The notes: generated from the letters alone by a model not told the origin. A stretch of 56,236 nucleotides of DNA from Acholeplasmatales bacterium (GCA_031284605.1 JAITXV010000130.1:1-56236), one strand, 5' to 3'. Numbered from the stretch's first letter, positions 1 through 10,700 are shown. Made by a program: numbers and translations.

Positions 1-95
1 TGGTGGCATTTTGGATAAAGTTGGTGGCATTTTGGATAAAGTTGGTGGCATTTTGGATAAAGTTGGTGGCATTTTGGATAAAGTTGGTGGCATTC
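1..95. repeat. 21-bp tandem repeat array at the left edge
   Basis: Four complete head-to-tail copies of a 21-bp unit (TGGTGGCATTTTGGATAAAGT) are followed by a truncated fifth copy (TGGTGGCATT). A near-inverted copy of the core (TCAAAATGCCAC, at 117-128) lies just inside. The array touches the window edge, so more copies may exist to the left. Multiple short direct repeats plus an inverted core are what the ends of IS21-like elements look like, but they would also fit operator iterons in front of a leftward gene outside the window. Neither can be settled here. Confidence 0.9.
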
Positions 96-4437: not shown

Positions 4438-5781
4438 TTATAACAAACCAACCATATATATTGGTAAATGTATTATTTCATCTTTAACCATATAGTCACG
4501 ATCATAAATAATATAAGATTTCCCAATGTGTATAGAAAATTTCTTTCTTATTTTATCTAATGAAGAGTGTTCAGTATAAGCTGATGATTTTGTTTCAAGA
4601 GGCGAAAGTTTTGATCCAATTCTTAATAAAAAATCTATTTCAACTGGTCTTAGGTTTTCTTCTTTATCTAAATTATAATAAAATATCTGCTCATGATTGC
4701 TAGACGCTATTTGTTGTGCAACAACATTTTCTGCAATCATTCCTTCATTTATATGAAGTTTATCAAAAAGTAATTTGTTATAAATTTCATCTTCCATAAT
4801 TATTTTTTGACCTAATGCTAGAGTAACGAGTAATCCTGTATCATTTATAAATACTTTTCTTTTGTTATAATCAAGAGTAAATGCGAATGCGATGTTTGGA
4901 ACGCTAGTTGCGAAAAATTGATTAATTAGCTTCGCTTCTTCTAGCCATGTAAAAGTTGTATCAAAATTTCTAGTTTTAGCATTCTTGCCCATTGATGTAA
5001 TATTAAACTTTTTATTAGGGTTTGAAAGTTGAGAAGGAATTTGATTATATATATCTAGTACTTTTTCGCTAGATATTTTAGGTAGCTTACGCATATCGTC
5101 TTTGTATAAAGATATTATATTTTGTTTTATAGAATCTACTTTTCTAAAATCTTTACTACTAATGTATTCATTTACTGCTTGTGGCATACCACCAACTATC
5201 ATATATATTCTAAAATCTTTCATAAATTTATCATGATTCACACCAACACGTTTTTGTTTTGTGTAACATTCCCTAATAAAATTAAATTGTTGTTCCCCAT
5301 TATCATATAATGCCCACATAAATTCCTCGAAATCAAATGGATGTAAAGTAATTTTCTGTTCTTCTGAAGGTATAGTGATATCTTTAATATTCTTTTTTAT
5401 AGAAATAAGAGAACCTGTCTCAATATAATCATATCTTCCATCTTCAACGAAATGTTTTATTAGTTCTCTTGCGTGCGGATACTTTTGAACTTCATCAAAA
5501 ATAATTAAAGTATTTCTTATATAAAATGTAGTGTTAACTACGGCTGATAGTTCAGCAAAAAATAAATCTTTGTCATCGAATCCTTCTTCAAATAAACTAA
5601 TAATTCGTTTATTTTTCATTGAAAAATCAATAACAATATAACTTTTATACTCATTAGCACCGAATTCTCTAGTGATAGTAGACTTTCCAACTCTTCTAGC
5701 ACCTTCTATTAAAAGTGCTGTTTTTCCATTACTTTCTTTTTTCCAATTTACTAATTCCTGATATATTTTTCTCTTTAACAT
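4438..5781 (-). CDS. AAA+ ATPase with DUF4143-type C-terminus (copy 1)
   Basis: A 447-residue protein from the ATG at 5781; the track starts at a GTG nine bases earlier, but that GTG is part of the site AGAAGGTG, so the ATG is preferred. It has an N-terminal P-loop domain with Walker A GARRVGKS (27-34), Walker B LIIFDEVQ (about 90-97) and the sensor-like ETGSLIS. The C-terminal part contains FINDTGLLVTL and a D-x(n)-E-x-K arrangement (EIDFLLRIGS..PLETKSS) typical of the PD-(D/E)XK-like fold of DUF4143. The family is widespread, often in many copies per genome; its role is unknown, with toxin, defence or selfish-element functions suggested. It is a paralogue of the gene at 6009-7351 and shares the ending YMVGLL. 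Two 29-bp direct repeats lie just upstream. Confidence 0.88.
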   Translation of the reverse strand: MLKRKIYQELVNWKKESNGKTALLIEGARRVGKSTITREFGANEYKSYIVIDFSMKNKRIISLFEEGFDDKDLFFAELSAVVNTTFYIRNTLIIFDEVQKYPHARELIKHFVEDGRYDYIETGSLISIKKNIKDITIPSEEQKITLHPFDFEEFMWALYDNGEQQFNFIRECYTKQKRVGVNHDKFMKDFRIYMIVGGMPQAVNEYISSKDFRKVDSIKQNIISLYKDDMRKLPKISSEKVLDIYNQIPSQLSNPNKKFNITSMGKNAKTRNFDTTFTWLEEAKLINQFFATSVPNIAFAFTLDYNKRKVFINDTGLLVTLALGQKIIMEDEIYNKLLFDKLHINEGMIAENVVAQQIASSNHEQIFYYNLDKEENLRPVEIDFLLRIGSKLSPLETKSSAYTEHSSLDKIRKKFSIHIGKSYIIYDRDYMVKDEIIHLPIYMVGLL

Positions 5782-5833: not shown

Positions 5834-5895
5834 AAAAACGCACCAAATTGCATAATTCAAATTGAGAAAAACGCACCAAATTGCATAATTCAAAT
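5834..5895. repeat. pair of 29-bp direct repeats upstream of ATPase copy 1
   Basis: AAAAACGCACCAAATTGCAT and following bases occur identically at 5834-5862 and 5867-5895, a 33-bp period. They lie 50-115 bases upstream of the ATPase start, in the position expected for operator sites. A 33-bp period is near three helical turns, which would place two bound proteins on the same face. Confidence 0.95.
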
Positions 5896-5972
5896 AAAAT
5901 AAAGACTACAGTTCTTACTTAGGTTTTAGATTATAGATGGATAGTTTTTAAAAAATAAGAAAATTAATCATA

Positions 5973-6008
5973 AAATATACCTGTTACATTGTGCAATAGG
6001 TGTATTTT
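5973..6008 (-). terminator. intrinsic terminator of ATPase copy 2
   Basis: AATATACCTGTTAC pairs with GCAATAGGTGTATT through a stem containing G-U or mismatched positions, followed on the minus strand by A/T-rich sequence. It is clearly homologous to the terminator at 4401-4437 behind ATPase copy 1. Confidence 0.65.
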
Positions 6009-7351
6009 TTACAATAAACCAACCATATATACTGGTAAATAGATAGTATTTAATTCTTTTTTAAAATCTTTAGTATAAATAATATATGAATCACCAAGCA
6101 ATTTAGAAAACTTGTTTTTAATTGCATCAAGCGATGGATAGTTTTTATAACTTGATGATTTTATCTCAAGAAGTGATAATTTTTTATTATTTTGTATAAT
6201 AAAATCAGTATTGTGGTACTTCTTAGAACCTTTTATAGCATTCCCATAATAGTATACTAAACTATTGTTTGAAGCAACTAGTTGTTGAGCAACTATATTC
6301 TCAAAAAACATTCCTTCATTTATGTGTAGTTTATCTAATAGAATTGATTTAAAAATATCTTTATCAACCAATTCTTTATTCTCTAAAGCGAGTGTAATTA
6401 ACAACCCCGTATCTAAAAAATATATTTTTTTCTTAGAATAGTCAATATTCGACTTTAAATCTAAAGTTGGTAAATTTGTAGCTTTGCTTATATTAATCAT
6501 TTTAGATTGTTCTAACCACTTAAACGCAGTATCAAAATATCTATTTGTGGTATCTGGAGAAACTGCAGAAAATTGAAATTTTTTGTTTATTTTTGATAAT
6601 TGTGCAGGTATTGATTCAAATATTAGCTTTACTTTTTCAATAATTTTTCCATTTGCTTTACTTATATCGTTTCTATATAACTCCAAAATTGACTTTTTTA
6701 TTTGTTCGACTTTTTCATAGTCGTTGGTACATATATATTCTTTTACAACACCCGGCATCCCTCCAATAAGCATATAAAGTCTAAAATCTTTTAAAATAGT
6801 TCGGTGAATGGCTTCGCCTAATGGCATTTTGTTGATAAAATATTGTCTTATATTATTAAAAATAACATCTTTGTTTATTGCCCATAAAAATTCCTCAAAA
6901 TCCATTGGATTTAGAGTTATCTTATATTCTTCAGAAGGAATTAGTATATTTTTTATATTTTTCTTTATAGAAATAAGAGAACCTGTTTCAATAAAATCAT
7001 AACGCCCATCTTTTACAAGTGCTTTTAGGGCTTGTCTAGCTAGAGGAAACAACTGAATTTCATCAAATACTATTAACGTTTCTCTTTCATAGAATGTAAC
7101 ACCAAATACAGTAGACAAAGAAAAAAGAATTCATTTAGGTTACGTAAACCTTTTTTAAACACTTCCTTAAATAAATTAATATCAACAGAAAAATCAATAA
7201 TCAAAAAGCTCTTATATTCATTCCTTCCAAATTCCTTTACAAGCGTGGTTTTTCCAACACGTCTAGCACCTTCAATTAACAATGCAGTCTTGCCTTGTGA
7301 TTCGTTTTTCCATTTTAACAAATTACTATACAATTTTCTTTTAAATGCCAT
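6009..7351 (-). pseudogene. AAA+ ATPase with DUF4143-type C-terminus (copy 2), frameshifted
   Basis: The frames 7073-7351 and 6009-7118 are the two parts of one gene of about 447 residues, the same length as copy 1. Part one carries Walker A GARRVGKT; part two resumes with STVFGVTFYERETLIVFDEIQ, matching AVVNTTFYIRNTLIIFDEVQ in copy 1. The break is at AATGAATTCTTTTTTC, where one T missing from a run of seven restores LNEFFFSLSTVFG. Downstream are FLDTGLLITL and the nuclease-like TDFIIQ..LLEIKSS. The rest of the reading frame is clean, so the break is recent, phase-variable or a sequencing error. No ribosome binding site precedes the ATG; a TATAAT directly before it hints at a leaderless start. 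Two repeats lie just upstream. Confidence 0.85.
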
Positions 7352-7392
7352 TATAATAATCTACTTTTAAATATTATAATATGTTTTATAAA

Positions 7393-7445
7393 AAATTATA
7401 GGTTTTTACACCTTTAGAAATATAGTAAATTGCAGGTTTTTACAC
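7393..7445. repeat. pair of 19-bp direct repeats upstream of ATPase copy 2
   Basis: AAATTATAGGTTTTTACAC (7393-7411) and AAATTGCAGGTTTTTACAC (7427-7445) are two copies differing at two bases, with a 34-bp period. They sit 42-94 bases upstream of the ATPase start. The sequence differs from the repeats in front of copy 1, but spacing and position match. Confidence 0.9.
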
Positions 7446-7511
7446 GTTCTAATTTTTTTGTAAAATAAAAAATTAAACGTTAATATCATATTAAACAAAA
7501 TCAATATATGA

Positions 7512-7517
7512 TATACT
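7512..7517 (+). promoter_or_regulatory. probable -10 element (TATACT)
   Basis: TATGATATACTATAAG is a good extended -10 region about 135 bases ahead of the decayed gene at 7652. No convincing -35 was found. The stretch from here to 7635 holds no ORF; it contains a weak inverted repeat (CTGAAAGTCC and GGATTTTCAT) that could be part of a leader. Confidence 0.4.
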
Positions 7518-7651
7518 ATAAGAGAATGCTAGTGTTCATTTATTTGAGTGTAAAACCATACTGAAAGTCCTTAAATTGTTTTGTAAACTCTTGGATTTTC
7601 ATATGAAGTGATGATAAAATAATAATATATTAATTAAGGAGGGGACTAGTT

Positions 7652-8147
7652 ATTAGTATAATAAGAACTAAAAAAGAACTAAAAAATGAAAAAGATATTT
7701 TAGAACAACTATCTAAGGATATTTGTAAAAAACTTGAAGAAAAATTATATAAATTTAAGTGTGCCTTTTATAGTGGACATACATATAAAGATAGTTTAGG
7801 TAATTGGAAAGAGTTAGAATACCATATTCCAGTAATAACTGTTGAAAATATTTGTGATTTAGAAATTACTTTAGATACAATTAGTATCTCTACAAAGCTT
7901 ACTAATGAAGAAGCGTTGTTATATGATTGGGAAAATATTGAAGAATATTTTTTCGAAGTATACGAAAGTAGTTGACTATTTATCTGATTATTATAATGAA
8001 CTACATAATATTAAAAAGTTGTTAGAAAACATAAAAAATAGTGGTGAAAATGAAATAGGAATCTCTTTTACCGTAGATTTAACAAAATCTTTTGATTATA
8101 TAATCAAAATTATCAATATATTAAAAGATGGAAGTTGTTATTACTAA
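7652..8147 (+). pseudogene. unknown gene with lost start codon and a frameshift
   Basis: A strong site AAGGAGGGG is followed seven bases later by ATT AGT ATA ATA, an open frame continuing for about 107 codons. An ATG-to-ATT change would explain the lack of a start, although ATT can initiate weakly. The frame stops at a TGA at 7974, but the +1-shifted frame (FSKYTKVVDYLSDYYNELHNIKK) continues to 8147; the switch point is a T6 run. The combined product would be about 163 residues, soluble and charged, with a helical C-terminus. No family recognised. The ORF-track entry at 7905 is only the second half. Confidence 0.5.
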
Positions 8148-8206
8148 GTATGCTTGTATGTGGTTAAAAAGTTTGAAAAATTAATCTAAAATTATCAGAC
8201 ACAAGT

Positions 8207-8257
8207 ATTATTACTCGCCAAATGTAGTATATTTTATGAGGATTTGGCGAGTAATAA
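8207..8257. repeat. 51-bp palindromic repeat, copy A
   Basis: TTATTACTCGCCAAAT and ATTTGGCGAGTAATAA form a perfect 16-bp inverted repeat around the 18-base spacer GTAGTATATTTTATGAGG. The second copy lies 99 bases downstream with the same spacer. Confidence 0.93.
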
Positions 8258-8305
8258 ATTCAAAAATTCTTTTTTATGTGTTTATTAAGATAAAAACGTT
8301 ATAAC

Positions 8306-8356
8306 ATTATTACTAGCCAAATGTAGTATATTTTATGAGGATTTGGCTGGTAATAA
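8306..8356. repeat. 51-bp palindromic repeat, copy B
   Basis: TTATTACTAGCCAAAT pairs with ATTTGGCTGGTAATAA around the same 18-base spacer as copy A. Relative to copy A one C-G pair has become A-T on both arms and one pair has become a T-G wobble, so pairing is preserved while sequence changes. It ends just before the ribosome binding site of the ATPase gene. Confidence 0.93.
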
Positions 8357-8372: not shown

Positions 8373-9761
8373 ATGAAAATAATAGGAAGAGAAGAAGAAA
8401 TAAATAAGTTAAAATTTTTACACAATTCTAATAAACCTGAATTAGCAGCAGTATATGGAAAGATAGGAGTTGGTAAAACTTTTTTAATTGAAAATTTCTT
8501 TAATAACAAATTCTTTTTTAATTATACTGGTTCAAAAAATATAACTAATAAACAGGAATTAGAAAGATTTTCTAAAGAATTAAACATTTTTATTAAATTA
8601 AACAATTGGGATCAAGCGTTTAATGAATTAAAAAAAATAATACAGGCTTCTAATAATAATAGTAAAAAGGTAATATTTATTGATGAAATATCTTTCTTAG
8701 ATAAACATAAGTCAGGCTTTTTAAATTCGCTTGAATATTTTTGGAATAGCTTTTGTATTTCTAGAAAAGATATACTACTAATAATATGCAGTTCTGCTAC
8801 TAGTTGGATAATTAATAAAGTATTTAATAAAACGTGCGGATTGTATGACAAAATAGCTTCTAGAATATGTATTAATGAATTTAATCTTAGTGAGTGTGAT
8901 GAATATTTAAAAAACATAGATATAAAATATGATATGTATTCTATAACAAAAGCATATATGGTGTTTGGAGGAATACCATATTATTATAGTTTATTTAATA
9001 AAGAAAAATTAGTAGAACAAAACATTGATAATCTTTTATTTAAAGAAGATGCTATATTAAAAAATGAATATTTAAAAATAACATCATCTTTGTTGGATAA
9101 TAAAGATGAGTATTTAAAAGTAATAAGAGCAATAGCTACTAAAAATTCTGGTTTGACTAGAAATGAAATAATTGAAATAATAAAATATAATAGTGGAGGA
9201 ACACTTACTAAAATATTGAGTGATTTAGAATTAAACGGATTCATAAGAAAATATAATAGTGTATCTTTTACTAAAAAAGAATCTGTATATCAAATAATTG
9301 ATAACTTTACTTTGTTTTATTACAACTTTTTAGAAACTAATGTTTTAAAGTCTAGGTCACCTTTTTTACTAGACAATAATGATTCATTTTTAAGCAGTTG
9401 GAAAAATTATGCTTACGAATTAATATGCTTAAAACATGTGCCTCAAATAAAAAAAGCTCTTGGAATAGGCGGAGTAAGTTCTTGTACGTATTCGTTTAAG
9501 AACGAAAATACACAAATAGATTTAATAATCGATAGAGCAGATAATGTTATAAATATTTTTGAAATAAAATTTTCACTATCACAGTATAACATAGATAAAT
9601 CTTACGATATTGAATTAAGAAATAAATTACAAACATTTATTGAAGCTACAAAAACTAGAAAATCTTTGTTTTTAGTATTTATTACTACTTTTGGATTAAA
9701 AAACAGCATATACAATGACCTTGTTACAAAAGAACTAACACTAGAGGATCTATTTGTTTGA
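8373..9761 (+). CDS. archaeal-type P-loop ATPase with DUF234-like nuclease-fold C-terminus
   Basis: A 462-residue protein starting at an ATG behind TTAGGAGAAC. Residues about 1-210 form an archaeal-ATPase (PF01637-like) domain: IIGREEEI at the start, Walker A YGKIGVGKT (about 28-36), Walker B VIFIDEIS (about 100-107), and VFGGIPYY. A winged-helix-like middle (GLTRNEIIEIIK...LSDLELNGFI) and a C-terminal DUF234-like part follow, with IDLII and FEIKFS giving the D...E-x-K signature of PD-(D/E)XK folds. It differs from the two DUF4143 genes but has the same overall plan. It ends 12 bases inside the convergent WYL-like gene. Function unknown; families of this type occur in multicopy sets in archaea and gut bacteria. 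Confidence 0.85.
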   Translation: MKIIGREEEINKLKFLHNSNKPELAAVYGKIGVGKTFLIENFFNNKFFFNYTGSKNITNKQELERFSKELNIFIKLNNWDQAFNELKKIIQASNNNSKKVIFIDEISFLDKHKSGFLNSLEYFWNSFCISRKDILLIICSSATSWIINKVFNKTCGLYDKIASRICINEFNLSECDEYLKNIDIKYDMYSITKAYMVFGGIPYYYSLFNKEKLVEQNIDNLLFKEDAILKNEYLKITSSLLDNKDEYLKVIRAIATKNSGLTRNEIIEIIKYNSGGTLTKILSDLELNGFIRKYNSVSFTKKESVYQIIDNFTLFYYNFLETNVLKSRSPFLLDNNDSFLSSWKNYAYELICLKHVPQIKKALGIGGVSSCTYSFKNENTQIDLIIDRADNVINIFEIKFSLSQYNIDKSYDIELRNKLQTFIEATKTRKSLFLVFITTFGLKNSIYNDLVTKELTLEDLFV

Positions 9762-10700
9762 TGTTTCTTCAGCTTCTGTATTTTCATATAACGCTAGAGC
9801 TTTTTGAAAATTTTCTTTAAATTCTTTACGCGATTTGGATGGTTCTAATATTTCTACATTATATGTAAATCTAGAAAAATAAACAAATGCTTGTTTTCTA
9901 CTGCAATAAAATGTATAAATATCGCCATCTTTGCTTTTTAAGAATGGTCTGTTGATTAACCTCATATAATAATCACTTATGCCTTGTTTTGTGAACCTTA
10001 CTTTTATATCATGAGATGGAAATGTAATAAATTGCGGACCGTTTCTATATATTTCTTTTATAATTTGTTCTTCTTTTTCTTTTATTTCTTTGGTTACTTT
10101 TATACCTTTTTTTGGTACGGATACTTCTAACATATTCATAATTTTGATAGAGTGAGAATCGTTTTTTTGATCGATTCCAACAAAGTAATGAAAGGTACTT
10201 TCCTTAGCAGGAAAAACTCCAACCTTATGAAGTGTAAGAAGTGCTTTCTCAATTGTTAATATACTTAGCGTGTCTGCTCTTTCAATTGCTATAAATTTAT
10301 CCATAAATAATAATTCTTGTCTATTAATATAAAGACTTCTAACATAAGACTCAATTATTAACTTCATTAGTTTGGCTACGTTATAGCCACACCTTAAAGC
10401 AACACTTTCATCGTTAACCTTCAAAGTGTTAGCATATTCAATCATATTTTGTGTATCAACATTGATTCTTCTCTTGCTATAAGAGTTAGCATCTTTTAAA
10501 TCTAAATACGAAAATTCTAATTTAATATTAACTCTATCAGAATATTTTAAGTAATTAGCTACGATAGTATTAATGATTCCATTATACGTAGCTTTCCCAT
10601 CTGCAAAAAATGTATTAATATCCTCTTCTATAGTGCTAGTAGCTAATTCTGTAAGATTTAAATTAATAATATCACTTGTAACTTCAAATTTTTGTGCCAT
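9750..10700 (-). CDS. WYL-domain-like transcriptional regulator
   Basis: A 316-residue soluble protein. The C-terminal third (FPSHDIKVRFTKQGISDYY... RP ... DGDIYTFYCSRKQAFVYFSRF...VEILEPSKSRKEF) resembles the end of WYL regulators, where a ligand-binding Sm-like fold is followed by a domain ending in VLEP..LR. The N-terminal 50 residues could be a ribbon-helix-helix-like DNA-binding part, but no standard helix-turn-helix is obvious. The gene is divergent from the five-gene RecQ/DprA operon, with 465 bp between them, the classical arrangement for a local repressor of a defence operon. GGAGG precedes the ATG, and a TATAAT lies about 35 bases upstream. Assignment is from pattern memory. Confidence 0.55.
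   Translation of the reverse strand: MAQKFEVTSDIINLNLTELATSTIEEDINTFFADGKATYNGIINTIVANYLKYSDRVNIKLEFSYLDLKDANSYSKRRINVDTQNMIEYANTLKVNDESVALRCGYNVAKLMKLIIESYVRSLYINRQELLFMDKFIAIERADTLSILTIEKALLTLHKVGVFPAKESTFHYFVGIDQKNDSHSIKIMNMLEVSVPKKGIKVTKEIKEKEEQIIKEIYRNGPQFITFPSHDIKVRFTKQGISDYYMRLINRPFLKSKDGDIYTFYCSRKQAFVYFSRFTYNVEILEPSKSRKEFKENFQKALALYENTEAEETSNK

Follow-up and report, generated by a model that had tools for sequence, protein, structure and literature searches.

Gene-private upstream repeats of DUF4143 and ATPase_2 ATPase-nuclease genes: period, residue-base covariation and a proposed autorepression

Repeats directly upstream of the gene are a real and general feature of two families of P-loop ATPases, the DUF4143/AAA_14 family and the ATPase_2 family. 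The repeat sequence is private to each gene. Among DUF4143 genes the repeat period tracks the protein subfamily, and in the largest subfamily a base of the repeat co-varies with one residue of the protein. The most probable explanation, in which we have reasonable confidence, is that these are single-gene ATPase-nucleases that autorepress via private operators and reside in horizontally moving cassettes. The starting point was a stretch of 56,236 nucleotides from an Acholeplasmatales bacterium (GCA_031284605.1 JAITXV010000130.1:1-56236, here called the window), which contains three such ATPase genes.

Upstream repeats in the window and among relatives

Copy 1 (4438-5781, minus strand) encodes an AAA_14-winged helix-DUF4143 (PD-(D/E)XK) protein, identified by Pfam, by PADLOC and from an AlphaFold model (pLDDT 88). 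Sequence comparison placed its two direct repeats, also on the minus strand, at 5834-5862 (gene-proximal) and 5867-5895 (gene-distal). The units are identical at 29 of 29 positions with a period of 33 bp, exactly as the preliminary description of this DNA had it, and the chance of a 29-bp identical run here is ~4e-11. A search of the 1.32-Mb genome that allowed up to 3 mismatches recovered the site just two times, both at its own gene, and a regulon was rejected on that ground.

Copy 2 (6009-7351, minus strand; ORFs and Pfam) is a DUF4143 gene of the same subfamily with an interrupted frame, as 6009-7118 and 7073-7351 lie in different frames. Its repeats (7387-7414, gene-proximal, and 7421-7448, gene-distal, minus strand, from sequence comparison) are degenerate 28-nt units, 82% identical, with a period of 34 bp. 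The 19-bp repeats at this period noted earlier correspond to the best core of these units (19 nt, score 13). Taken in isolation the pair is weak; its 34-bp period matches the expectation for its subfamily. The frame break at 7073-7118 (~7.1 kb) is either real decay or an assembly error. Other DUF4143 copies in the source genome (on contigs C114, C58 at 2.3 kb, and C11) contain stop codons and retain their repeats. Between copy 2 and the palindromes of the third gene, at 7655-8147, a small reading frame is apparently broken, with only an 80-aa ORF open.

The third gene (8373-9761, plus strand) had been called DUF234-type. This assignment does not hold: DUF234 (Pfam PF03008) is absent, and the only models to reach E ≤ 0.001 are ATPase_2 and others of the P-loop/AAA kind. 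Pfam, PADLOC, AlphaFold and a fold search together give an AAA+-winged helix-PD-(D/E)XK protein. The two palindromes described in front of it are present on the plus strand by sequence comparison, the first at 8208-8257, with 16-bp perfect arms (8208-8223 and 8242-8257) around an 18-bp centre and arm centres 34 bp apart, and the second at 8307-8356 (arms 8307-8322 and 8341-8356). They are 93% alike and lie 99 bp apart, and their half-site occurs four times at this gene and once elsewhere in the source genome. On the opposite strand, a WYL-like protein (9750-10700; PADLOC WYL, E 3.9e-8) overlaps the 3′ end of the gene.

For a wider comparison we used 80 named relatives of copy 1 (40-51% identical) from Bacteroidales, Clostridia, Bacilli, Spirochaetes, Opitutales and one Thermoplasmatales archaeon, 77 of which had sufficient upstream DNA; all genomes are assemblies, many of them metagenomic, with start codons set by rule. 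Direct repeats with a score of at least 12 occur upstream of 87% of the 77; among 650 control ORFs taken from these loci the share is 6.6%, and in dinucleotide shuffles it is 0.9%. For periods of 32-35 bp the corresponding values are 77%, 1.8% and 0.2%. Some of the control matches come from antisense ORFs called spuriously across these very repeats, or from further DUF4143 genes. The repeats comprise 2-5 units in the orientation of the gene, at most ~200 bp from its start, and similar sites occur downstream or far upstream in just 4 loci. The preliminary description had staked its proposal that each ATPase has its own cognate site on an enrichment over control genes; this enrichment, the gene-specific sequences and the subfamily-specific period strongly support it. 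That the repeats arise by chance, or as low-complexity sequence in AT-rich intergenic DNA, is hardly conceivable: the genome is AT-rich and the copy 2 pair is modest in isolation, but neither accounts for the difference from controls and shuffles or for one dominant period per subfamily.

The same arrangement is found in the cultured isolates Segatella copri, S. hominis, Agathobacter rectalis, Vescimonas fastidiosa and Prevotella sp. E2-28, and a Bacteroides plasmid has it at double spacing (66 bp). In A. rectalis DFI.5.28 the gene lies on a plasmid (NZ_CP143948) behind four 33-bp repeats, and in S. copri DSM 18205 (NZ_CP085933) there are three. Viral contigs yielded one distant relative of copy 1 and no relative of the ATPase_2 gene, and 395 genomes from the class of locus L095 added few relatives. 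Contigs at five loci (L081, L104, L114, L139 and L146) and source-genome contigs C98, C43 and C27 terminate upstream of the gene, at distances between a few and a few hundred bases, as if the arrays break assemblies, so surveys would undercount the repeats. No description of these repeats was found in the literature outside subscription papers, where an earlier description is possible.

The period was compared across DUF4143 genes pooled from the window's relatives and order, one archaeal genome and the named set, with genes classed by their Walker-A sequence. In class A (G-x-K-W-C-G-K), 20 of 23 genes have a period of 23 bp or a multiple and 3 are unclear, so that all 20 genes with repeats conform. 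Class B (G[APLCVQ]R[RQ]xGK), to which copies 1 and 2 belong, shows 33-34 bp or a multiple in 95 of 116 genes (95 of the 101 with repeats), another period in 6 and no repeat in 15. Class C ([IV]K[IV]xTGxRRxGK) has ~40 bp in 11 of 26 genes, or 11 of 13 with repeats, the remainder being 2 with another period and 13 with none. None of the 6 class D genes (TGPRQVGK) has a direct repeat; by eye, they appear to have a single dyad. The repeat sequence thus varies gene by gene while the period tracks the protein subfamily, with almost no crossing, in Bacteria and Archaea. The 1.4-Mb archaeal genome (G815, loci L309-L337) can be viewed as a natural experiment in orthogonality: it contains 29 DUF4143 genes, most with their own repeats and nearly all with different sites, and these paralogues follow the same period rule.

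Within the source genome, among genes with upstream DNA, the period is 33 in three genes including copy 1, 34 in copy 2, 41 for L032 and 23 for L033 and L037, the last of these falling under the score threshold. At L036 a ACATAGTGC pair ~32 bp apart is visible by eye and was missed by the scan. The scan returned no upstream repeat at L038, and L035 starts at a contig edge.

Relatives of the ATPase_2 gene (36-44% identity) have 45-51-bp palindromes directly upstream, mostly paired and some single, and the palindrome sequence differs for each gene. Start-to-start distances of the pairs are 62-63 bp (six or seven cases), 72-73 bp (two) and 131 bp (one). Distances of 62-63 and 72-73 bp approximate 6 and 7 turns of B-DNA; the 99 bp of the window is a non-integral number of turns.

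Protein architecture and the region that may read the site

The proteins are predicted to combine a STAND/ORC-like AAA+ ATPase, a winged helix and an intact PD-(D/E)XK nuclease domain. Structurally, the AAA+ and winged-helix portion of copy 1 is closest to the archaeal STAND-type ATPases PABY2304 (2qen, Z 16.3) and SSO1545 (2fna, Z 15.2), over residues 1-322. Both are known as structures, and we found no paper assigning them DNA sites. Fold searches also match Orc1/Cdc6 on origin DNA, RuvB and NB-ARC proteins. Archaeal Orc1/Cdc6 initiators likewise consist of AAA+ and winged-helix domains and recognise repeats, and their structures with DNA are among the best fold matches. Orc1/Cdc6 origin repeats adjoin the initiator's own gene. 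Unlike Orc1/Cdc6, the proteins studied here add a nuclease domain, and a single genome may hold up to 29 of them, their sites differing. The Orc1/Cdc6 family model TIGR02928 scores 20.9 bits against a cut-off of 181.3. No origin function is suggested.

In copy 1 (residue 1 being the codon at 5776-5778), the P-loop and Walker B residues G26, G31, K32, D95 and E96 are invariant among relatives. The PD-(D/E)XK core (4588-4731, minus strand) comprises E350, D382, E395 and K397, each kept in 65 of the 65 relatives that reach it, and the site therefore looks functional, judging from sequence. E349, D383, E397 and K399 are invariant in the ATPase_2 set.

Copy 1 matches PDC-S01, one of PADLOC's categories of phage defence candidates (PDC), over its full length (E 2.8e-99, residues 1-446), and the ATPase_2 gene matches PDC-S27 (8373-9758, E 1.3e-159, residues 1-461). 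The two categories have the same build, in both cases an ATPase fused to PD-(D/E)XK (PMC12988326). PDC-S01 is the fourth most common prokaryotic defence category, with 29,494 bacterial and 9,986 archaeal detections, PDC-S27 has 4,562 and 3,503, respectively, and validation of the antiviral activity of most PDCs is pending (PMC12988326). In rumen genomes, PDC-S01 is the most frequent individual locus (PMC13356809). The accessible parts of these descriptions (PMC12988326; PMC13356809) mention neither cognate repeats in front of the genes, nor reading by a winged helix, nor any rule for the period. Since most nearest neighbours in our set are housekeeping genes, it is PADLOC that supplies the defence label. 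The commonest recurring families are PDC-S01 (~7 of 98) and PDC-S27 (2 of 98), and a methylase, AbiLi, DRT and PDC-S02 each appear as a neighbour once.

Secondary structure in the model and the fold matches place a predicted winged helix at residues 234-311 of copy 1 (4846-5079, minus strand). In the AlphaFold model, residues 262-276 lead into a helix (273-281), followed by a two-stranded hairpin (285-291 and 302-311); helix and hairpin are read as the predicted recognition helix and wing. The model of the ATPase_2 protein (pLDDT 90) has the same layout in its predicted winged helix (residues 244-308; 9102-9296, plus strand), with helices at 263-270 and 275-287 and strands at 291-295 and 304-308.

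Class B repeat units were aligned without gaps and searched for residue-base covariation. R270 (4969-4971) paired with the G of the NGTG half ranks top of ~8,800 residue-base pairs (z 6.9), and that G is present in 101 of 102 sites of R270 proteins. Among representatives left after redundancy filtering, GTG accompanies R270 in 25 of 26 cases and occurs in 4 of 23 where R270 is lacking (p 1.6e-8 at 70%). At each redundancy cut-off (49, 37, 20 and 13 representatives), R270 outranks all other residues, of 290-405 compared, in its association with GTG. More broadly, variation in windows at residues 262-276 (4951-4995, minus strand) tracks the NGTG half-site, the well-conserved half of the unit, with a partial r of 0.52 after control for overall protein distance. 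Parsimony on the tree points the same way, but on few independent changes: 3 of 7 motif changes coincide with changes at R270, which fails correction for the 331 residues tested. R270 is likely a specificity residue on the basis of these alignments.

For the left half-site the strongest correlation, itself weak (0.28), is with the nuclease domain (residues 368-395). More than one domain may thus take part in reading, or the DNA may serve as a substrate. The covariation windows argue against the nuclease domain as the main or sole reader and leave it as a possible partner for the left half-site. The preliminary description had proposed autoregulation by the nuclease-fold C-terminus. Autoregulation stands as the best explanation; the reader is probably mainly the winged helix, where the covariation peaks.

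These results also bear on whether an unrelated host regulator binds the repeats, with the ATPase as a passenger. Promoter-proximal operators are generally common, but a host regulator would leave three observations unexplained, namely that the period tracks the ATPase subfamily across phyla and domains, that a specific ATPase residue co-varies with bases, and that co-resident paralogues all have different sites. We regard this as very improbable.

Selection, mobility and a proposed autorepression

Across 87 pairs of relatives with proteins 60-97% identical, which share members and are hence non-independent, the repeats are 79% identical, the spacers within arrays 58% and other upstream DNA 45%. 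The repeats are under purifying selection. In Bacteroidales, a TAnnTTTG promoter (−7) box lies ~8 bp past the last repeat, or overlaps the array, or precedes it by 20-50 bp, and this variable position suits a blocking repressor better than an activator. A sigma-70 scan of the window, with 27 matches against 22 expected, does not discriminate in such AT-rich DNA.

A role for the repeats in RNA, as 5′UTR hairpins or attenuators, is very improbable. While the ATPase_2-family palindromes could fold as hairpins, direct-repeat units mostly have no self-complementarity, the predicted −7 box may come before the repeats, among them or after them, and searches for an Rfam family or a terminator-like site found none.

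Relatives in different surroundings often have a block in common, bounded by the first repeat on one side and the stop codon on the other (L095/L103, −129 to 1345; L113/L116, −125 to 1345; L130/L133, −96 to 1346). In such diverged pairs, the sharing may be just what selection maintains. The pairs L096/L101 and L134/L137 are 98-99% identical with different flanks, which points to real transfer of little beyond the repeats and the gene. No integrase or transposase was found in the shared blocks, and repeats at both ends occur in L103 only, so we rejected the idea that the repeats are the ends of a mobile element.

We propose that the cassette comprises a private tandem operator followed by one ATPase-nuclease gene. 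Several subunits would bind the operator copies side by side, with winged-helix residues of the R270 region reading the GTG half of each unit. A subunit geometry fixed per subfamily would set the period of 23, 33-34 or ~40 bp, or the paired palindromes. Because the operator overlaps or adjoins the promoter of its gene, a bound protein would repress transcription and keep a potentially toxic nuclease scarce, and the different sites of co-resident paralogues would confine each protein's control to the gene that encodes it. On a trigger, most likely infection, the protein would be released, its level would rise and the nuclease would be set free. That the nuclease is held back for use in defence is suggested by the nuclease motif and the PADLOC label.

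It is conceivable, if improbable, that the repeats are instead a substrate or docking site for the nuclease, on which an AAA+ ring assembles and PD-(D/E)XK nicks or guards the DNA, for example as a self-tag or for cassette movement. The conserved nuclease residues, the weak covariation of the left half-site with the nuclease domain, the shared blocks that often span first repeat to stop codon, and the repeats on both sides of the gene in L103 would all suit such a role. The repeats are nevertheless nearly always upstream only, in one orientation and close to the start; similar downstream sites occur in just ~3 of ~70 loci, and the block travels with no integrase or transposase.

A bolder alternative, unlikely but worth entertaining, is that a ring parked on the private repeats serves as an inactive sensor platform. 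Disturbance of this DNA by phage takeover, degradation or replication would free and arm the nuclease. Site and protein would then co-evolve as a mobile lock-and-key cassette, and the principle would perhaps extend beyond AAA_14/ATPase_2, for example to the AlbA_2-HATPase_c_4 family.

The autorepression that we favour resembles known systems. Toxin-antitoxin and restriction controller genes are autorepressed through tandem or palindromic operators that overlap the promoter and are private to the locus, and thereby restrain a dangerous activity. Unlike those systems, putative repressor, ATPase and nuclease are here in one polypeptide. A two-gene toxin-antitoxin module is not apparent, as there is no accompanying partner gene and the shared blocks usually consist of the repeats and one gene.

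The findings point to the DNA that many PDC-S01 and PDC-S27 proteins probably bind, and the Walker-A class, through the period, predicts where the site is located. Private sites could explain how up to 29 paralogues persist in one 1.4-Mb genome without cross-talk. Binding, regulation and function become testable in cultured gut bacteria, and the loci may constitute a natural library of putative private operator-repressor pairs for synthetic biology.

Three loci have unusual flanks. In L103, the same repeats, with a 33-bp period, lie on both sides of the gene (6001-7347), three upstream and two downstream (7440-7495) in the same orientation, perhaps left over from a second copy or from movement of the cassette. 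The L096/L101 block (98.8%) is flanked by direct repeats of 76-77% identity, at approximately −377 to −315 and +1406 to +1475 relative to the gene. They resemble coding sequence for the C-terminus of a larger protein (EIDRLVYDLYGL...), presumably a methylase.

The edge array and the AlbA_2 family

A 21-bp tandem array of four full units and a partial one occupies positions 1-95 (minus strand) at the contig edge. Sequence comparison shows that the same array opens contig C27 of the source genome and ends ~35 bp before a SLFN_AlbA_2-HATPase_c_4-wHTH gene. From the shared array we infer that the window contig and C27 join there, which would put positions 1-95 on the upstream side of that gene. 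Since it stands directly before the AlbA_2 gene on C27, the array is probably that gene's putative operator. The suspicion that it is a fourth case, in front of a gene outside the window, is thus probably correct, but the gene is of another family. IS21 ends, considered for this array, were set aside once it was found directly before the AlbA_2 gene.

AlbA_2-HATPase_c_4 may be a third, unrelated family with private operators, but the upstream repeats make a much weaker case here, with 6 of 28 relatives at or above the score threshold. Upstream of five of these genes (L273, L295, L296, L300 and L301) are tandem repeats of 10-11 bp, or one helical turn, and four others (L280, L282, L284 and L287) have palindromes that straddle a −10-like box.
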